Part shown: one piece after another, positions 1-6,306 of the stretch
Numbering within the stretch: the stretch's first letter is position 1
Layout of the letters: every line of letters begins with the position of its first letter
Assembly: GCA_030042755.1 (NCBI GenBank)
Contig: JASHZC010000004.1
Coordinates: forward strand, 1 to 6,306
Origin: Vulcanimicrobiota bacterium
Lineage (GTDB): Bacteria > Eremiobacterota > Eremiobacteria > Baltobacterales > Baltobacteraceae
DNA: 6,306 bases
Direction of reading: 5' to 3'
Notes under the pieces: generated by a model
Told to the model about the DNA's origin: nothing
What the model saw: only the letters and a program-made list of their open reading frames with translations
Database searches by the model: none
Position numbers and translations under genes: made by a program

Positions 1-905
1 TAGGCTTGCGTCTCCTGCAAGTCCACATCGAAACGGTCGTACTCTTCAAGCAGCTTCGTCGCCAACGCCGCGGTCGCTGCCACGTCTTGGCGGTTGTAGT
101 CGATGTAGAGCGGCGTAATGACGCCGTGACGTTCGACGGTCAGTTTGCCCTGTTCCACGCCGAAAGCTTTGCAGGCGGAGTCCAGGGTGTGGCCGCGATC
201 GGTCAGTACGAATGCCAGCGTGCGCAGATCGAGGAAGTGGCCGCGGAACTTCGAGTCCTCCGGTTCACCGGTCGGCGAGCCTTCCGGAATCAGATCGACG
301 GGATCGGGGTCGCGCGCGCCGGTAAAGCCCTTCAAGGCACGTTTACTGTCGATGTGCTTGATCGCGATGCGCGGCCGATACTTATTAATCCGCCGTACGC
401 CGTGCTTGTCCTCATAATCCCAGAGTGCGAGAGAGAAGCCGCCTGCGAACCGCTTATCCTTCGGTAAACCCCAACCGGTGGCCAGACGCGACAGATCGAA
501 CGGCAGATTGAAGCCCACGATCAGGCAGCGGCCGTCAAAGCCTGCGGTGTACAGCTTTTCGAGAAACTCCCGGCGCGTGAGCAGGAGCAGGCGTGGAACG
601 CCGCGCCGCCGATCGGTCGCGGCCGCGTGCGTGCGCACATAGGCTTCGAGCTTGGCGCGATCAGTGCGCGAAAGATCGTCACCGTAAAAGAGGCCTTCTT
701 CGAGGCAGATCCCGTCCTCGTAGTAGCGGTAGCTGCCGAAGGTGAGGGCCTGAGCGGTATCGGTGCGCGTTTCCGTATCGAAGACAAGCATGCGTGGCGG
801 GCGACGCCAGTGGCGCAGTTTCCTGCGTTCGCGCTCGCCAAGGTCCGGCCGCGGATAGACCCGGATCGCGAGCTTCAGCGGATCGGGTGTTACGCCGGCT
901 GCCAT
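1..905 (-). CDS. PolB-type DEDDy 3'-5' exonuclease / putative family B DNA polymerase, N-terminal part (runs off left edge)
   Basis: I translated this frame by hand. It is open from an ATG at 905-903 to the window edge, giving 301 residues with no stop. It shows a full DnaQ-fold exonuclease signature. Exo I is LVFDTET with D43 and E45. Exo II is VGFNLPFDLSRL with N133 and D137. Exo III is YNRQD with Y270 and D274. The tyrosine in Exo III puts it in the DEDDy class typical of family B DNA polymerase proofreading domains. From memory, similar actinobacterial hypothetical proteins continue past this point into a PolB-like region with a YPT/SLYPS-type motif, so a polymerase domain to the left is inferred, not seen. 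The start overlaps the end of the HNH-like gene by 16 nt and has only a weak ribosome site, which suggests translational coupling. M39 (ATG at 791) is an alternative start, but the charged N-terminal 38 residues seem to belong to the family. A stand-alone exonuclease is the alternative reading. Confidence 0.8.
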   Translation of the reverse strand, partial: MAAGVTPDPLKLAIRVYPRPDLGERERRKLRHWRRPPRMLVFDTETRTDTAQALTFGSYRYYEDGICLEEGLFYGDDLSRTDRAKLEAYVRTHAAATDRRRGVPRLLLLTRREFLEKLYTAGFDGRCLIVGFNLPFDLSRLATGWGLPKDKRFAGGFSLALWDYEDKHGVRRINKYRPRIAIKHIDSKRALKGFTGARDPDPVDLIPEGSPTGEPEDSKFRGHFLDLRTLAFVLTDRGHTLDSACKAFGVEQGKLTVERHGVITPLYIDYNRQDVAATAALATKLLEEYDRFDVDLQETQA

Positions 906-1378
906 CCCTCGAAATCCGTCCCTTTCCACCAGAGCCCACCGTGGTGCTCGCGCAGCCACGCATCGAGCTTGCGAAGAAACTCGGCAAGATAGTGCATGCC
1001 TCGCACGATCAGATGCTCGATGAACTCGGCAAGGCCGTCAAGGAATCCCGCAGCTGCCAGTAGCGGACTGCCATCGGGATTCGGGAGCGCGCCGGGCGGC
1101 CACTCGTATTGCGCGTCGCTGAGTGTACGGTGATCCATAAGCGAAACCTCGACGGTGATCGGCGAGTTGGCTTTGCCGCCGATGTGGTGCGTCTCCATCG
1201 TCTTCCTACCTTTCTTGAGCGCGTAACATGGGCGGCAGCGTTTTGGGCGGCTGTTGCACACGAGCATGTTGGCGCGTCCTTCGCCGCAGTCTACGCAGAG
1301 CGCGCCTTCGCCCACGCGCCGCTGGGTCTTCGCTCTGCGCGCGCCGGAGCTGATCGGATCATTCGACCGGCTCGCCAC
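890..1378 (-). CDS. Zinc-finger/HNH-like endonuclease family protein
   Basis: This 162-aa protein starts at GTG 1378-1376, sharing one base with the stop of the upstream 180-aa gene (TAGTG). The N-terminal half has a Cys cluster: C28-x2-C31, C41, and C48-x2-C51, which is zinc-finger-like. It is followed by METHHIGG (H64, H65) and SLMDHRTLSD (D82, H83). The HH...H spacing resembles the beta-beta-alpha metal motif of HNH nucleases. From memory, related proteins have N-D-H-R where this one has M-D-H-R, so the usual Asn may be absent here and activity is uncertain. The C-terminal half is amphipathic and Trp-rich, with no recognised domain. HNH genes are common passengers of casposons, and this one sits directly before the polymerase-type gene in the same operon. 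A nonenzymatic zinc-binding protein is the alternative. Confidence 0.7.
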   Translation of the reverse strand: MASRSNDPISSGARRAKTQRRVGEGALCVDCGEGRANMLVCNSRPKRCRPCYALKKGRKTMETHHIGGKANSPITVEVSLMDHRTLSDAQYEWPPGALPNPDGSPLLAAAGFLDGLAEFIEHLIVRGMHYLAEFLRKLDAWLREHHGGLWWKGTDFEGWQPA

Positions 1379-1920
1379 TAGCCGGCCCTCGCGTAGAGCG
1401 ACTGAAACGAGAGCACGCCGGCCGAGCCGAGTCGTTCCAGTTCGTCCAGATCGGTGAGCAGCGGGATCGTCTTGCCCTCGGCGTCGGTGATGGTCACGCC
1501 GCGGAACCGTGCGAGTTCGCTGTCGTCACCGGTCGCCAGAAATAGATCGACCGCGTTCCAATATTCGGCGATGAGCGTGGCCGCACGTGAGTCCGTGGTC
1601 GCGATCTCCGCCAGGCCGTCGGGCGTCGGCAGGATGAGCACGCGGAGCAAAGTGTCGCGAGCGCGGGCTGCGTACGTGCCGCGCTCGGTCTTGCGCAGCG
1701 CGCCCTTGGCATGGCGCAAGACGGTCGCGGGCGCGACCCCCTGCTCGCGCGATGCCTGCCGGAGTGAGACCTTCGCGGTCCGCATCTCGAAGAGAACCTT
1801 GACCGCTTTCTTCTGGACCTCGCGGCGACGCTCGGGCTGCGCGAAGTACTGCGCTGGAGTGCGAGGCTTGCGGACACGCTTCCCTTGACCTGCGCGCCGC
1901 TTTGGCTTACGCTTTGGCAT
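1378..1920 (-). CDS. Basic helix-turn-helix DNA-binding protein, 180 aa
   Basis: The N-terminus is very basic (about 20 residues rich in Lys and Arg). A predicted helix-turn-helix follows at about residues 50-73 (VSLRQASREQGVAPATVLRH), with the A-x3-G-x-A/S-x-T-V pattern of recombinase or transposase-like HTH modules. The C-terminal half holds an acidic segment with TDLDELERLGSAGVLSF, which I do not recognise. The ATG at 1920 is preceded by AAGGA at 10 nt. The stop shares a base with the next gene, so translation is probably coupled to the HNH-like gene. A 9-bp-stem hairpin lies immediately upstream of the ribosome site. Likely roles are element-specific DNA recognition, such as end or origin binding, or regulation. 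No catalytic motif is visible, so I do not call it a transposase. Confidence 0.75.
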   Translation of the reverse strand: MPKRKPKRRAGQGKRVRKPRTPAQYFAQPERRREVQKKAVKVLFEMRTAKVSLRQASREQGVAPATVLRHAKGALRKTERGTYAARARDTLLRVLILPTPDGLAEIATTDSRAATLIAEYWNAVDLFLATGDDSELARFRGVTITDAEGKTIPLLTDLDELERLGSAGVLSFQSLYARAG

Positions 1921-1935
1921 GGCTGTGAAATCCTT

Positions 1936-1966
1936 GAGGCCTGGTCGAGTGCAATCGCCAGGCCTC
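1936..1966 (-). promoter_or_regulatory. Perfect 9-bp inverted repeat (hairpin) before the 180-aa HTH gene
   Basis: GAGGCCTGG and CCAGGCCTC flank a 13-nt loop in the 60-bp gap between the 123-aa and 180-aa genes. On the minus-strand transcript the 3' arm ends directly at the AAGGA ribosome site of the 180-aa gene. There is no U-tract, so it is not a clear intrinsic terminator. It could be an mRNA processing or translation-control hairpin, an attenuator, or a protein-binding inverted repeat. Confidence 0.5.
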
Positions 1967-1980
1967 CGTCATTGGTGACA

Positions 1981-2352
1981 CTAGGGGCTTTCGGTTTCCG
2001 CCGCCTTGCGGAAGTAGTAGGCCTTGCCAGATTTGACGAGCTTGGTGTTGGCGATCGGCCCGCGCTTTGCGATATGTGCGGCAGCCGCCTGAAGCTCGGC
2101 GTCGCGCTTCTCGTTGGCTTGCAGCGTGATGATCTCGTCCGGCCGCCCGTCGTTCGGTGAGACGGTGGCCGCCCAGCGGTCCGCCCCCTCGTAGCCGGCG
2201 TTCTCCTGGTAGTCGATCGCCTTGATGGTAAAGACGAGATTCTTGGAAAGGTACTCGTCCTTATCGGCATAAGGCGTTGCGCTGGAGAAGGAAAACTCGG
2301 TCTCCTCGCGCGAGGTCCTCGCGCCCTCGGCGCGAGTCGTATGCGATTTCAT
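1981..2352 (-). CDS. Hypothetical 123-aa protein, predicted OB-fold-like, candidate ssDNA-binding protein
   Basis: The ATG at 2352-2350 has an AAAGGAAA ribosome site 8 nt upstream, so the start is well supported. After a charged, Ser/Thr-rich N-terminus, reading by eye gives strand FTIKAIDYQ, strand DRWAATVSP, strand DEIITLQAN, a helix around KRDAELQAAAAHIAKRG, then strands IANTKLVKSG and AYYFRKA. This beta-beta-beta-alpha-beta-beta order matches an OB fold, as in single-stranded DNA-binding proteins. The Tyr, Trp and Phe residues in the strands could stack on bases. Its position in an operon ending in a PolB-type gene fits a replication accessory role. I do not recognise a named family, and the function is an inference from topology and neighbours only. 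It lacks the acidic C-terminal tail of cellular SSB. Confidence 0.75.
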   Translation of the reverse strand: MKSHTTRAEGARTSREETEFSFSSATPYADKDEYLSKNLVFTIKAIDYQENAGYEGADRWAATVSPNDGRPDEIITLQANEKRDAELQAAAAHIAKRGPIANTKLVKSGKAYYFRKAAETESP

Positions 2353-2409
2353 TGGTCGTGATTTCCTTTCATGATGTGTCGTTGGTTTAGTGATGGGAGA
2401 CGAAGCTGA

Positions 2410-2697
2410 TCATGCTTGCGGTGGCGGCATGTTGCGCCAAGCGAACCAGAACGTAAGTGCGATGAAGCCCACAAAGGCGGCGAGGCCAATCCAGCCGGCG
2501 ATCTCTGAGCCCTCGCTCGCGTCGCCCGGTGGCTCGCACCACTCGCCCTTCATCGGGCGCGGATCATCCTCAAGCTCGCGGGCGATCCGCCGGACCGTCC
2601 AATCGCTGCATCCCACCTCGCGGGCGATCGCGCGGAACGAAAGCCGCGAGTCTTGGAGCAGCTGCTCGATGTGGCGACGGTCAACCGGGCCGCTCAC
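2410..2697 (-). CDS. Small HTH protein with a single C-terminal transmembrane segment, 95 aa
   Basis: The GTG start at 2697-2695 overlaps the stop of the Xre gene as GTGA, a standard sign of translational coupling. Residues 17-42 (LSFRAIAREVGCSDWTVRRI) form a classic helix-turn-helix, with the RAIAREVGCSxxTVRR pattern of resolvase/Hin-like or transposase-type HTHs. A Pro/Glu-rich linker follows. Residues 66-87 (IAGWIGLAAFVGFIALTFWF) are a clear membrane helix ending with a short tail RNMPPPQA. The protein is therefore predicted to tether a DNA-binding domain to the inner face of the membrane. Possible roles are a membrane-associated regulator or anchoring of element DNA at the membrane during replication. 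Neither can be told from the sequence. Confidence 0.7.
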   Translation of the reverse strand: MSGPVDRRHIEQLLQDSRLSFRAIAREVGCSDWTVRRIARELEDDPRPMKGEWCEPPGDASEGSEIAGWIGLAAFVGFIALTFWFAWRNMPPPQA

Positions 2698-2906
2698 GGC
2701 GCGACACCGAGTCCGTCGCCGATCTCTTCGAACATGCGCTCGGCGTCATCACCGAAGGTGCGCCGCAGCCGTTCGAGATCACGTGGGCTGGCCGCCAGGC
2801 GGCCTTGTTCAAGGTAGCCCAGCGTCAGATGGCTCATCCCGAGGTGTCGGGCCGCTTGCGCCTGCGTCAGGCCCTTAGAAAGCCGCCATAGCCTCAACCG
2901 CAACAA
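2694..2906 (-). CDS. Small Xre/Cro-type HTH repressor, 70 aa
   Basis: This is a single-domain HTH_3/Xre protein. RLSKGLTQAQAARHLGMSHL followed by TLGYLEQGRLAASPRDLERL covers the canonical helices, including the LTQxxxAxxLGMS core (residues 14-26) and the YLExGR turn. The remainder, rich in Glu and Asp, could be a short dimerisation helix. The start is TTG at 2906-2904, with GGGAG 7 nt upstream. A second in-frame TTG follows immediately and would suit the nearer AAGGA. No in-frame ATG exists upstream. It is the first gene of the minus-strand operon and diverges from the 358-aa gene. Boxes related to TTACTCCC overlap its promoter and ribosome site, so it is the obvious candidate for an autorepressor and element switch. 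Confidence 0.8.
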   Translation of the reverse strand: MLRLRLWRLSKGLTQAQAARHLGMSHLTLGYLEQGRLAASPRDLERLRRTFGDDAERMFEEIGDGLGVAP

Positions 2907-2908
2907 AT

Positions 2909-3016
2909 CCTTACTCCCATTCTGTGGACTAAAAGTGGCGACGGCTTCAGTATATCTGGGAAGTAAGGCTCCCGTCAGGGAATAATACCGGTATGGAAGG
3001 ATTACTCCCCGGGAGT
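2909..3016. promoter_or_regulatory. Cluster of four TTACTCCC-like boxes (putative operators) between the divergent arms
   Basis: Related boxes occur at 2909-2919 (plus, CCTTACTCCCA), 2957-2968 (minus, CCTTACTTCCCA), 2977-2987 (minus, TATTATTCCCT) and 2999-3010 (plus, GGATTACTCCCC). The first two form an inverted pair. The last extends into a perfect 6-bp inverted repeat around one base (ACTCCC-C-GGGAGT, 3004-3016). Box 1 covers the ribosome site of the Xre gene, boxes 2 and 3 cover its promoter, and box 4 lies just inside the 358-aa coding start. This suggests shared control of both arms by one repressor, but part of the GGGAG content could simply be ribosome sites. Confidence 0.45.
2949..2978 (-). 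promoter_or_regulatory. Sigma70-like promoter for the minus-strand operon
   Basis: On the minus strand CTGACG (2978-2973, four of six matches to TTGACA) and TATACT (2954-2949, five of six matches to TATAAT) are separated by 18 bp. This lies about 43 bp upstream of the TTG start of the Xre gene. A TTACTTCCC box sits inside the spacer and a TTATTCCC box overlaps the -35, a layout expected for repression. Confidence 0.55.
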
Positions 3017-4069
3017 CCGGCCGAACGGGCTCGCCCTGGTTCCCGCAGCTATGCCGGCCTCCAGCAGCGCGTCGAGTTCGTCCGATGGTTGGCAGACCAC
3101 GTAGCTCGGTCCGGGCTCAGCCACAAGCAGATCGCGCGCGAGCTATGGCCCGAGAGCGCCGAGGCGGCAACGACGCATCAAATAAAGCTGTATACGGAGG
3201 TGCGATGGACCAAAGCGGGGCCGAAGGTAACACTTCCAGCTCCGGCGACGCTCCGACGGCTTTGCAAGCTCCTGGACATTCCTTGGACCGAAGCCTTCGC
3301 CAACGCGGGCTACTACCGCGAGTTACTTCAGGCTTTGGGCGATCTCGCCGATCTCGGCTTCAAGTGGTACGCGGAAGATCGCGCCAACGGTCTTCTTCGT
3401 GAGAGTGTTCGCACTGAGGACGTCAGCCAAATCGGTGGCGAACCGGTTGGCTCAGCCTTCGAACGGCCGGAGTTTGCCGACCGTTACATCATCGGCTATT
3501 GGGAAGAAGGCCCGTACGATCCGCCGGAGATCACCTTCAACGAACAAGCCGATGCGGACGAGATCGAGTACATGAAGGAGTGGGTCCGCCAAGACGCAGC
3601 CCAGCCTAGGCGAATCAGGACGATCGTTCCAAAGCCACTTGCTGTCGCGGTCCTTATTGCAACGGTGGGATTTCCGCGCCGCGGTGATCTTTACAAAGAC
3701 GAATCGGTGAGCTATGCAGCGGAGTTGTTAAAGCCGGCGACGTGGCTCATTGATCTTGCTGAGGAGCAGTCGCAGCTTCAGGGTCTGCCGCCGTTGTTGC
3801 AGAGAGCCGATGACGCGCTCAAGGATCGGCTTCTCTCGCTTGAACTCAAGCGCGTGATTGCAGCAGAATACACCGTTGCCTGGGCGGGTCAGCAGTCGTC
3901 ACTGTACACGCACACGGCGCGGCTTGCAGCAATGCGCCGATTTGGCGTTGCCGGTTCGACCGAGTCTAGCCCTCAAACAGAAGAGCAACTTCCCGACATT
4001 CGAAGGGCGGCGCTCCCCTCACCTGAGCTCTTTAAGCCAGGCGCACTCAATGACACCGTAACAAACTAA
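2993..4069 (+). CDS. 358-aa protein with N-terminal Xre-like HTH region; function unknown
   Basis: The ATG at 2993 has AGGGA 11 nt upstream, a rather long spacing. Residues 27-52 (VEFVRWLADHVARSGLSHKQIAREL) resemble the first helices of an Xre-type domain. Residues 79-112 (LPAPATLRRLCKLLDIPWTEAF followed by an AGYY motif) resemble the last helices, separated by an insert. The remaining 240 residues contain no motif I can name. They include a short hydrophobic segment VPKPLAVAVLIATVGFPRRG that seems too short and proline-broken for a membrane helix, and a largely helical end. The gene is read away from the operon and towards cas1, with 58 bp between them, so it may share a transcript with cas1. 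It could be a regulator of excision or integration, or an adaptor for the Cas1 protein. Its base composition looks somewhat less GC-rich than its neighbours. Confidence 0.75.
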   Translation: MEGLLPGSPAERARPGSRSYAGLQQRVEFVRWLADHVARSGLSHKQIARELWPESAEAATTHQIKLYTEVRWTKAGPKVTLPAPATLRRLCKLLDIPWTEAFANAGYYRELLQALGDLADLGFKWYAEDRANGLLRESVRTEDVSQIGGEPVGSAFERPEFADRYIIGYWEEGPYDPPEITFNEQADADEIEYMKEWVRQDAAQPRRIRTIVPKPLAVAVLIATVGFPRRGDLYKDESVSYAAELLKPATWLIDLAEEQSQLQGLPPLLQRADDALKDRLLSLELKRVIAAEYTVAWAGQQSSLYTHTARLAAMRRFGVAGSTESSPQTEEQLPDIRRAALPSPELFKPGALNDTVTN

Positions 4070-4074
4070 AGATG

Positions 4075-4100
4075 CCCCCGGCCGCGCTAACGGCCGGAGG
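4075..4100 (+). terminator. GC-rich hairpin between the 358-aa gene and cas1
   Basis: CCGGCCG (4078-4084) pairs with CGGCCGG (4091-4097) around a 6-nt loop, and two further G-C pairs form after one mismatch. It starts 6 nt after the stop codon. There is no T-tract, so termination would be weak or factor-dependent. It could instead reduce cas1 expression relative to the upstream gene. Confidence 0.35.
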
Positions 4101-4127
4101 CGTTGCACCCGGAGGATTGAGCTCCAG

Positions 4128-5687
4128 ATGCTAAAGCAGAACTTTACGCCCTTGTATACCCCGCTGCAAGTCCGCGCCGGCGTTTTGGTCGTGGACGGCT
4201 TCGGCATTGCGCTGCGCGTGCTGTATGGCAAGCTGCGCGTGGACGATGGGATCGGCCGGCAACGGCGATCGCTCGTCCTCGATCGCGCGGGCAGCGGCCT
4301 CGAACGCTTGGTGCTGATCGGCAAGGCGGGCTTGGTCACGCTGGAGGCATTGGCGTGGCTGCGGGCGATCGGCGCGGCGTTCGTGCAGATCGGCCGCGAT
4401 GGCGAGGTCCTCGCGCACTCGTTTCCTTACATGTACGACGGACACCCGATTCGCCGCGCCCAAGCCCTCGCGGTCGCCAACGGCTTGGACCTCACAATCG
4501 CCCGCGAGCTGATCGCCGCCAAGCTGGACGGCCAACGCCAGATCCTGGTACGGCTTGGCGCTGATCCTCGCGAGCACGACAAGCTGCGAGGCGCGGTCGA
4601 TGCGGCCGAGTCGATCGAGCGCGTGCGCGTGATCGAGGCTACGGCTGCGGGGCTGTACTTCAGCGCGTTCCGCGACGTGCGGATTCACTTCCGCGATCGG
4701 GACCTCGCACGCATTCCGGCGCGTTGGCTGCGTGCTGACTCTCGCGCCTCAGTTTTGACCGGTGCGCCTCGCGCAGCAACGTCGGTATTGAATGCAATGA
4801 GAAACTACGTCCTCGCTTGCTGCGAGGCAGAAGCTCGGCTCGCGTTGCTCGCACACGGACTTGATCCCGCGATGGGCGTCCTCCATGCCGATCAGCGCAA
4901 CCGCGATTCCTTTGCGCTGGACGCCATGGAGCCGGTGCGAGCCGAGGTGGATGCCTTTCTCCTCGATCTGCTCGAAGATCGCGTCTTTACCGCGCGAGAC
5001 TTTGCCGAGCTTCCGAACGGTGTTTGCCGTATTGCGGCCCCCTTGACGCATGAACTTGCACTGACGTTGCCGCATTGGCGCGAATGCCTGCGCCCGATCG
5101 CGGCGAACCTCGCACAACGATTCCGCGAGCCGTTCGCAACGAGACGCACAAAGTCAGGACCGGCCAAGTCAACGCTGCTCGCAACACCTCGCAAAGCCTC
5201 GCAGCCGCGACCGTACGCAACGCGCAAATGGCGCGCACCCACGGTCGAAGCGCGCCCAGCGTCGCCGATCGCCTGTGCCATGTGCGGTGAGCCGGTGCTC
5301 AAACGCAGACGCCGGCATTGCGAGGCGTGTATGCCCAAGGCGCGACGTGAGCATGGACTCCGTGCGATGGCCGCGGCTCGCAAAGCCCTCGCCGCGCAAT
5401 CCGCGGCGGGCAACGATCCACGCCGCGCAGCCGCCGTGAACCGCGCGCGAGGCGAGGCGATCAGCGAGGCGCATCGCGGCAATCGCGGCTGGGCGCGCGA
5501 GCATCCAGGCCAGCGCGACGAAGCATGGTTCAAGCGCGCGATCGCGCCGAGGCTCGACGGTTTCTCGCTGCGGGAGATCGCCGACGCGACGGGCTTGTCC
5601 CTCGCGGCCTGCTCGCGTATCCGCGCTGGGGCGAAGGTTCCGCATCCGCGGCATTGGGCGGCACTGCGCGACCTCGTTCGTTTATAA
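4128..5687 (+). CDS. cas1: Solo Cas1 integrase with C-terminal zinc finger and HTH (casposase-like)
   Basis: This is a Cas1-family DNA integrase, which joins DNA ends into a target with a two-metal-free-type E-H-D metal site. The N-terminal beta domain (about 1-90, with VLVVDGFGIALRV and GKAGLVTLEALAWL) and the alpha-helical domain (about 91-335) are both present. The predicted active site is intact: E170 (RVIEATAAGLYF), H253 (GVLHADQRNRDS), and D265 with E268 (ALDAMEPVR). At 519 aa it is far longer than CRISPR Cas1 (about 300-340). The extra part is a basic linker, a zinc finger (C383-x2-C386, C398-x2-C401), a Lys/Arg-rich stretch and a C-terminal HTH (about 464-519, FSLREIADATGLSLAACSRI). 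A C-terminal HTH is a hallmark of casposases. No cas2 or array is present. GGAGG lies 12 nt before the ATG. An alternative reading is a domesticated solo Cas1 or a single-Cas1 adaptation gene with a distant array. Confidence 0.92.
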   Translation: MLKQNFTPLYTPLQVRAGVLVVDGFGIALRVLYGKLRVDDGIGRQRRSLVLDRAGSGLERLVLIGKAGLVTLEALAWLRAIGAAFVQIGRDGEVLAHSFPYMYDGHPIRRAQALAVANGLDLTIARELIAAKLDGQRQILVRLGADPREHDKLRGAVDAAESIERVRVIEATAAGLYFSAFRDVRIHFRDRDLARIPARWLRADSRASVLTGAPRAATSVLNAMRNYVLACCEAEARLALLAHGLDPAMGVLHADQRNRDSFALDAMEPVRAEVDAFLLDLLEDRVFTARDFAELPNGVCRIAAPLTHELALTLPHWRECLRPIAANLAQRFREPFATRRTKSGPAKSTLLATPRKASQPRPYATRKWRAPTVEARPASPIACAMCGEPVLKRRRRHCEACMPKARREHGLRAMAAARKALAAQSAAGNDPRRAAAVNRARGEAISEAHRGNRGWAREHPGQRDEAWFKRAIAPRLDGFSLREIADATGLSLAACSRIRAGAKVPHPRHWAALRDLVRL

Positions 5688-5719
5688 TCCCGCTGGAACT
5701 CCCAGGCGAAGCGTAGAAT
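5683..5719 (+). promoter_or_regulatory. Possible promoter region for the lipoprotein genes
   Basis: TATAAT (5683-5688) overlaps the cas1 stop, and TAGAAT lies at 5714-5719. Neither has a convincing -35 hexamer at 16-18 bp, so this is only a candidate. A promoter is expected here because the lipoprotein genes look unrelated to cas1. Confidence 0.3.
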
Positions 5720-5748
5720 GTTACCCCTGTGGAGGGTTGTCACCAGGC

Positions 5749-6174
5749 ATGAAAGGGATCGAGCTCTGTCGGCGTCCTCTCGCGACGCTTTGCGTCGTTG
5801 CTGCATGCGTTGGCTGTGGCCGCAAGTTTACCGAAGACCTCGCATTTCAAGCACCGCAGGGCTGGGTCTATGCGGCAGTGCCCAACGGTGGCGAGGTGTG
5901 GGTCAAGCCTGGTGGGTCGAAGGAATCAATCATGGCGCAGGCCACGGACAGTCCGCTCCCGCAGCGCCAGCCAGACTGGAAGGACATCACCATCTGTGGC
6001 AATCATTCCGCGGTGCTCATGATTCAAACGAACAACCCCGGCCAGATCTGGGAGGGCGTGAGCACAACCTGGGGTTCCGAACGATATATGGCCGTGTATG
6101 TTCGGCCCACAGGCTCTGCACCCGATCCAAACGCGGAATCTGCGATCCGGTCGTTATGCTTAAAGACGTCGTGA
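5749..6174 (+). CDS. Small secreted lipoprotein, 141 aa, unknown function
   Basis: From the ATG at 5749 the protein has a lipoprotein signal: positive MKGIELCRR, hydrophobic PLATLCVVAAC, and a V-A-A-C lipobox with the lipidated Cys at residue 20. GGAGGG lies 12 nt upstream. An in-frame TTG at 5737 directly abuts that site and is unlikely to be the start. The mature part begins with a short beta-rich domain (FQAPQGWVYAAVPNGGEVWV). It has two Cys residues (ITICGNHS and SLCLKTS) that could form a disulfide after export, and a C-terminal motif PDPNAESAIRSLCLK. I do not know its function. The sequence style resembles small lipoproteins of Eremiobacterota, so I read it as chromosomal flank rather than part of the Cas1 module. 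Confidence 0.75.
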   Translation: MKGIELCRRPLATLCVVAACVGCGRKFTEDLAFQAPQGWVYAAVPNGGEVWVKPGGSKESIMAQATDSPLPQRQPDWKDITICGNHSAVLMIQTNNPGQIWEGVSTTWGSERYMAVYVRPTGSAPDPNAESAIRSLCLKTS

Positions 6175-6193: not shown

Positions 6194-6306
6194 ATGAGAT
6201 CAAATCGCGTTGTGCTAAGCGTCAGCGCCGCTGCATTGCTCGCAGGGTGCGGCGGATCGCAGCTGCCGATCGGCGCGCCAGGCACGATGCCACAATCAAA
6301 GGCGAG
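6194..6306 (+). CDS. Lipoprotein, N-terminal fragment (runs off right edge)
   Basis: The ATG at 6194 opens a frame that is uninterrupted to the window edge (37 codons). It encodes a signal peptide MRSNRVVLSVSAAALLAGC with a perfect L-A-G-C lipobox (Cys19), followed by GGSQLPIGAPGTMPQSKA. That post-lipobox motif recurs, in my memory, in many Eremiobacterota proteins that carry beta-propeller or other extracellular repeats. What follows here is unseen. It lies 19 bp after the previous lipoprotein stop and may be cotranscribed with it. Confidence 0.7.
   Translation, partial: MRSNRVVLSVSAAALLAGCGGSQLPIGAPGTMPQSKA

Follow-up and report, generated by a model that had tools for sequence, protein, structure and literature searches.

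Gene content of the contig

Contig JASHZC010000004.1 (assembly GCA_030042755.1) of a Vulcanimicrobiota bacterium carries a solo cas1 gene and part of a family-B DNA polymerase (PolB) gene. Cas1 is the enzyme that stores memories in CRISPR (clustered regularly interspaced short palindromic repeats) immunity, and a casposon is a jumping element that uses Cas1 to insert itself. The stretch analysed, referred to below as the window, is the entire contig of 6,306 nt (6.3 kb). It very probably represents an internal part of a casposon, the host being most likely a member of Eremiobacterota (Vulcanimicrobiota), and neither end of the element lies inside it. Nine plausible genes diverge from the centre of the window, six leftward (3–2906) and three rightward (2993–6174), and the start of a tenth follows. 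The genes and features are listed below (aa, amino acids; HTH, helix-turn-helix; ORF, open reading frame; L numbers denote related loci and G numbers related genomes).

3–959, minus strand: N-terminal (DEDDy exonuclease) part of a family-B DNA polymerase (phrog_17 DNA polymerase match, 3.3e-7; orthologue in L089)
890–1378, minus strand: HNH-like zinc protein, conserved in casposon copies (tblastn to L001, L004, L171 and L173; weak profile match)
1378–1920, minus strand: conserved casposon gene, 180 aa (homologues in L001, L002, L003, L166–L168 and L170–L173)
1981–2352, minus strand: conserved casposon gene, 123 aa (homologues in L002 and L171)
2410–2697, minus strand: small HTH protein (HTH_Tnp_ISL3, 7.2e-8; HTH_AsnC-type, 6.3e-7; homologues at 7 of 11 loci)
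2694–2906, minus strand: XRE-type HTH regulator (HTH_31, 1.5e-11)
2993–4069, plus strand: casposon-conserved gene adjoining cas1 (homologues in L004–L008 and L060)
4128–5687, plus strand: cas1 (casposase), 519 aa (Pfam and NCBIfam profiles, alignment, tree)
5633–5668, plus strand: repeat core of the cas1 3' end, also present as many solitary copies in relatives; not the end of the element
5737–6174, plus strand: probable lipoprotein gene, probably cargo 3' of cas1 (ORF; signal-like start visible in the translation)
6194–6306, plus strand: 5' portion of another probable lipoprotein gene, truncated at the right edge of the window (DNA of its signal region is found again close to casposon copies in L001, L002 and L011)

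The cas1 gene, the visible part of PolB and the genes between them are all open reading frames. No Cas2, effector or recombinase family exceeded the cut-off among the window proteins in Pfam and NCBIfam, and none was seen in further profile searches of the window, PHROG among them. Likewise, no whole recombinase or transposase family passed the cut-off among the nine proteins of the window, which alone was tested; one 95-aa protein contains a bare HTH of transposase type. An earlier reading made from the sequence only had described a solo intact Cas1 with PolB-type, HNH-like and HTH genes and no CRISPR parts, and profiles and motifs confirm this. It had also placed the module at positions 1–5687 and expected the right end just after cas1. 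This is incorrect, as the element runs past both contig ends.

The Cas1 protein

The protein is identified as Cas1 by PF01867 (3.9e-30, Pfam) and TIGR00287 (8.4e-25, NCBIfam). It consists of a Cas1 domain (4296–5024), a zinc ribbon (5274–5330) and a C-terminal HTH (about 5565–5618). Residues E170, H253, D265 and E268, which we take to be catalytic, are invariant in 18 of 18 aligned Cas1 rows and correspond to E, H, D and E in the Methanosarcina mazei casposase 6opm. The zinc-ribbon cysteines C383, C386, C398 and C401 (CxxC..CxxC) are also invariant in the 18 rows. The C-terminal HTH (about residues 480–497) gave a weak Pfam match (E=0.099). The window thus holds a solo cas1 with intact catalytic residues, and the description of a catalytically intact Cas1 with a C-terminal HTH in the sequence-only reading stands, with a weak profile for the HTH. 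A C-terminus of the AceAut type, with zinc-binding and HTH parts, is present with the same weakness of the HTH profile; here the layout was compared with the published description (PMC4046053). An AlphaFold model of Cas1 was set aside owing to its mean pLDDT (predicted local distance difference test) of 59.5.

The polymerase and accompanying genes

The minus-strand gene 3–959 forms the N-terminal third of PolB and is cut by the window start; translation may in fact begin at the ATG at position 905. The motifs FDTET, NLPFD and YNRQD can be read from its translation, and there is no Pfam match. The near-orthologous locus L089 (75–77% DNA identity to the window across about 4 kb) supplies the polymerase part with the motifs DFLSMYPT, NATSYG and DTDS, so the minus-strand DEDDy exonuclease with PolB motifs, as recognised earlier, is upheld. 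PolB homologues of 1004–1141 aa with family-B motifs are present in L003, L004, L005 and L007, and the PolB of relatives carries a C-terminal HTH. A single-sequence PolB search against PDB gave no match; a PolB profile matched PDB entries in two places only, around motif C (Pol alpha and others) and, at the C-terminus, to the lac-repressor HTH.

The HNH-like protein contains CxxC pairs and an HH..N..H pattern, seen by eye. This part of the earlier description holds at the level of motifs and is backed by one weak profile match (phrog_15427, E=0.028). Several small HTH proteins had also been claimed: those at 2410–2697 and 2694–2906 are recognised by Pfam, the former with a hydrophobic, membrane-like segment (by eye), and an HTH in the product of 2993–4069 is suggested (phrog_3949, E=0.0025). 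The predicted model of this last protein is usable (mean pLDDT 77.6). It has no PDB fold match at E<=0.001, and the best Foldseek match is an HTH control protein (E=0.59). An N-terminal HTH followed by a long helical C-terminal part is probable.

Related loci

A genome scan gave 11 related loci, several per genome, nine of them from Candidatus Eremiobacterota metagenome-assembled genomes (MAGs) and two titled 'bacterium'. Whole-genome searches found Cas1-related matches in all seven genomes of those loci, and in 39 of 98 relatives of genome G001 (a count that includes CRISPR-type Cas1); PolB matches occur in at least 17 of the 98. The protein database yielded 548 Cas1 homologues at E<=0.001 among 7999 candidates scored. 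Among the 120 of these that were listed, a named organism is Candidatus Cybelea in six cases and Candidatus Binatia in one, with the proteins labelled by the sources as CRISPR-associated Cas1. Viral contigs contained no Cas1 relative and one weak PolB relative. Cas1 matched 14 plasmid records, all below 60% identity and none over more than 80% of the query; the ten among those listed are annotated as CRISPR Cas1. The closest delimited relative of the window is unit E1 of G001, with a Cas1 79–82% identical to that of the window.

Element ends and target-site duplications

A total of 880,894 bases of related loci were scanned by rule for GGG...CCC ends flanked by an exact 14- or 15-bp target-site duplication (TSD). 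The scan returned 29 rows, against 0 in the reversed-sequence control. Fourteen rows were one-base shifts or other pairings inside the same arrays and were removed, which leaves 15 elements of 4.7–16.5 kb (E0, E1 and E2 of G001; two in G006; G019; two in G033; L043; L060; L168; L170; L172; L173; L174), with GGG-starting terminal inverted repeats (TIRs) and TSDs whose exactness is built into the scan rule. The left ends start with GGGATA in nine of the 15 and with GGGCATAGG in two; GGG itself is found at 1–2% of places in the same loci. PolB lies within eight of the delimited elements, and cas1 and PolB occur together in eight; 14 of the elements were checked for these genes in one search and the second G033 unit in another.

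Two members of the window's Cas1 family were delimited by an inverted-repeat search. L043, with cas1 and PolB, has a 369-bp TIR of 99.5% identity, a length of 14,678 bp and the TSD CTTACGCGGCGGCTC adjoining secA; E1 of G001 has a 197-bp TIR, a length of 7,569 bp and a TSD equal to the secA 3' end. The search in a more distant Cas1 group with PolB nearby gave TIRs and 14-bp TSDs in L166 (TIR 34/34 bp, element 15,252 bp, TSD ATGGGTTTCGCAGA), L168 (TIR 30/30, element 15,281 bp), L170, L173 and L174, and no TIR/TSD pair in L169, L171, L175 and L180. The same search found a pair in L060, of a third Cas1 subgroup. The sequence-only reading had suggested looking for TIRs and 14–15 bp TSDs, and both are thus present in relatives. 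Further TIR-like ends were seen by eye past the outer TSD at L043, L060, L168, L170, L174 and G019. The 17.1-kb contig L059 carries a 71-bp inverted repeat at both ends (1–71 and 17078–17148), so it may represent a single casposon broken off at the TIRs.

The target at the 3' end of secA

The gene adjoining the arrays of elements is secA (Pfam SecA_DEAD, 9.8e-129, and SEC-C motif). It ends with ..CHGAAA and the stop codon before the TSD, and the secA-type TSD consists of the last 14 nt of the gene, stop codon included, plus one base. This TSD is found in seven of the 15 elements (three in G001, two in G006, L043 and G019); that of G019 equals the secA end of its own genome, though the two are on different contigs.

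The secA 3'-end pattern is readable in 23 of the 98 relatives of G001, among which the genome of L043 (G004) is not included. N-GGG stands directly behind secA in 14 of the 23, mostly continuing like GGGCATAGGGTTAAGG or GGGATAGGAGTTAAG. All 14 occupied genomes have a Cas1 match, compared with two of the nine others (G002 strong, G061 weak); the Fisher test gives p=1.5e-4, or about 4e-4 without G022, one of the nine, which is cut by the contig end, and as the genomes are related these values are guides and not literal. Target occupancy thus differs among genomes, in favour of the sequence-only reading, which had asked for presence/absence variation among relatives; no same-species empty site was found. 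That reading had also expected a tRNA 3' end as target. The main target is instead the secA 3' end, and a tRNA-Ser gene 3' end serves in one more distant element, L173. At G033:C6 near 314074, two tandem 15-kb casposons are inserted around the start codon of an ORF that begins with MGFAD. The target sequence of L174 resembles this site.

Tandem units

Up to three units stand in tandem behind secA. In G001 three units (8.7, 7.6 and 16.4 kb) lie between four identical 15-mer copies, in a row that ends at secA. In G006 three 15-mer copies separate two units, and to the left of the outermost one the flanking DNA finishes in a TIR-like CCC; the outer unit, 4,723 bp, has no match to any casposon protein tested. 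The two 15-kb units of G033 share a 14-mer. TIRs of E1 and E2 in G001 match within each unit and differ between the neighbours, and their cas1 genes, 82% and 64% identical to that of the window, lie on different tree branches. This favours separate insertions of E1 and E2 over duplication. Ranking the units by age from TIR identity was tried and discarded: the values (17/17 for E1 and 11/17 for the secA-proximal E2 in G001; 14 for the outer and 9 for the proximal unit in G006) show no polarity and no ordering by distance from secA. Tandem casposons are already known in Methanosarcina and Nitrosopumilus (PMC6563490, PMC9939771 and PMC10359463).

Kinship of the Cas1

The Cas1 tree is unrooted and contains 40 rows with several long branches; no family-3 casposase is among the rows. 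The window family (11 rows) stands on one side of a branch supported at 100/99, and the distant Eremiobacterota group (9 rows) is equally firm (100/99). An intermediate group of four is less so (79/71). All 24 Eremiobacterota casposases hold together (100/99). Within the window family, E1 and G013 form a pair (98/94) that is joined with the window at 90/74. Eight archaeal Cas1s homologous to the M. mazei casposase, which we take to represent casposon family 2, form their own clade (100/99), and the window Cas1 does not fall into it. Eight CRISPR-type Cas1s, six of which are proteins of relatives classed by match pattern only, are split from the 32 other rows (96/93). The tree proposed in the sequence-only reading thus places the window clade apart from the eight archaeal casposases and across a branch from CRISPR-type Cas1.

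Cas2 was found in none of the 11 genomes of casposon-bearing relatives, whereas the control search found it in seven of the 14 known genomes examined; parts of the genomes may be missing from the MAGs. With no Cas2 profile in the window either, a CRISPR adaptation module is not seen, and the earlier statement that the window shows no Cas2 holds.

Comparison with known casposons and CRISPR arrays

Within family 3 as described in PMC4046053, the closest likeness is to AceAut-C1, with a Cas1 fused to C-terminal zinc-binding and HTH parts, PolB, HNH and HTH genes and a bacterial host, although this Cas1 tail is not common to all family-3 members. HenMar-C1 of the same family has a DNA methyltransferase, as does L043 here. 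The present elements differ from family 3, compared by description only, in host phylum and in the secA 3' end as target. With family 2 (e.g. MetMaz-C1 of M. mazei) they share, according to the available descriptions, a C-terminal HTH on both Cas1 and PolB and a size of 6–16 kb; MetMaz-C1 has the TIR GGGATATAGG.. and a 14-bp TSD, compared with GGGATATTAC.. or GGGCATAGGG.. and 14–15 bp in the Eremiobacterota elements. They differ from it in the separate Cas1 clades (100/99), the bacterial hosts and the stacks at a protein gene, including units without tested casposon genes. Family-1 thaumarchaeal casposons likewise target an essential protein gene (ef-2), in its 3'-distal part, and are reported to include a tandem pair (PMC6563490); their PolB is protein-primed, their Cas1 has no extra domains and the target gene is another. 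With CRISPR arrays the elements share the Cas1 family and a repeat-unit-repeat layout in which the target is restored each time. The units here are instead elements of 5–16 kb with their own ends, and no Cas2 or effectors were found.

Interpretation and alternatives

The interpretation as an integrative Cas1/PolB element distinct from the archaeal families is supported. A self-replicating integrative element or a descendant of one, in a separate lineage, had been suggested from the sequence, and the TIRs and TSDs, target occupancy, Cas2 searches and tree favour it. In the proposed mechanism the leftward genes would provide regulators, an HNH-like nuclease and the family-B polymerase that copies the element, and the rightward genes a partner protein and Cas1. 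At the secA 3' end, Cas1 would join the repeat ends to target strands staggered by 15 bp, and repair would duplicate the 15 bp, so that secA stays whole. The restored secA site could then accept more elements, and tandem arrays with intact and decayed units would build up. Presumably Cas1 does the joining, PolB copies the element, and derived units were moved in trans.

Several observations weigh against this interpretation. Neither a TIR-like start nor the secA target sequence is present in the 6.3 kb of the window, so that for the window copy both are a prediction: GGG-type ends and a position behind secA. Seven of the 15 delimited elements lack intact cas1, PolB or both, which means that many copies are dead or reliant on others. 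The TIRs of E0 and of the secA-proximal G006 unit match poorly (5 and 9 of 17), and the outer left and inner right ends in G006 match better (13/17), so the G006 units could also be one 13.4-kb element. No TIR/TSD pair was found in L003 and L059 (cas1 and PolB) or L053 (cas1), all of the window family. The occupied genome G015 has only a short Cas1 match (4.2e-7), but PolB matches are present; in G002, whose genome holds many casposon copies, the secA end (L053:12761–12790, G002:C74) has no TIR, and cas1 lies 3 kb downstream. PolB motif A deviates in L003 and L005, the PolB of L172 is split into several pieces, and PolB and HNH-like matches to known families are weak. The lack of a same-species empty site belongs here too.

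The incomplete elements raise the question whether the window is itself a decayed or non-autonomous copy like E1 of G001, moved with the help of other copies if at all. E1, the closest delimited relative, keeps an intact cas1 ORF and only a PolB fragment, and this and the number of incomplete elements (seven of 15) lend the explanation some weight; it is nevertheless rather unlikely, because everything from the visible PolB to cas1 in the window is open, as is the near-orthologous PolB of L089 up to its contig end. A domesticated solo-cas1 island that does not move and is passed on with the chromosome would agree with casposon-type ends at the same secA site in many genomes and with the decay of several copies. 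It is, however, hard to reconcile with the exact TSDs, with TIR pairs that match within and differ between E1 and E2, with the divergence of their cas1 genes onto different branches and with the use of other targets including tRNA-Ser, and we regard it as very improbable.

Still less credible is a remnant of CRISPR adaptation, i.e. a Cas1 that lost Cas2. The labelling of named homologues as CRISPR-associated Cas1 (among the matches listed) is what speaks for it; the PolB partner, the C-terminal tail, the TIRs and TSDs, the split of the window from CRISPR-type Cas1 in the tree and the results of the Cas2 searches given above, with the same reservation on MAG completeness, all speak against it. 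A casposon thus remains the preferred explanation of the window.

Casposons are known as a kind, and the founding paper names them in four bacteria (PMC4046053). In the literature searched, no report joins casposons with Eremiobacterota or with secA; the phylum, the target gene, the Cas1 clade and the extent of stacking are new. One bacterial phylum thus offers many casposons, their Cas1s divided into three or more subgroups, together with delimited ends, an essential and conserved target gene and tandem stacks in which intact and decayed units both occur. It is a natural system for the casposon-to-CRISPR hypothesis in hosts where Cas2 was not found (0 of 11 genomes), and it makes target choice, the need for a leader, insertion order and mobilisation in trans accessible to study. 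Stacking behind one essential gene offers a natural model for a possible origin of CRISPR arrays. It is conceivable, though doubtful, that a casposase acting at a fixed secA 3' 'leader' built true arrays, including DNA taken up in trans. The 15-bp repeats lie between units of differing kinship, including the G006 unit of 4.7 kb without tested casposon proteins. If this were true, the arrays would be the missing natural intermediate from transposon to CRISPR array and would grow on the secA side, as CRISPR arrays do at the leader side.

Cargo genes and solitary copies of the cas1 3' end

The probable lipoprotein gene at 5737–6174 has no Pfam or NCBIfam match. A lipoprotein-like gene family with a common signal region recurs around casposons in both orientations (L001; window 6214–6306). 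Relatives carry defence-type cargo on the PolB side (L005:3–3974 and L004:1888–2997), consisting of type I restriction-modification genes (HsdM, HsdS and the N-terminus of HsdR) and a DNA methyltransferase.

The last 70–150 bp of cas1 (core GTSCCGCAYCCGMGGCAYTGG; window 5538–5694) are present in many copies without the rest of the gene, in L003, L042, L045, L094, L095, L101 and others. Seven genomes contain 53 cas1 matches at E<=1.4e-10. Short ones (<200 aa) number 37, and 26 of them extend at least to residue 505, about four of which form the second fragment of a longer gene. The final ~110 bp of cas1 (END) were considered as the terminus of the element, with the inverted copies in L003 and L001 as TIRs, and rejected because the TIR/TSD pairs lie elsewhere. 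An integron-like cassette reading of the END-gene-END modules in L003 and L042 was not adopted, as there is no fixed border; truncated END copies start anywhere from position 8 to 105 of the hidden Markov model. In these modules an Mrr-type restriction endonuclease gene (Pfam, L003 copy) lies between two END copies of the same direction (L003:9834–11145 and L042:9417–10691). The two modules come from two genomes, share 90% DNA identity and have different left flanks.

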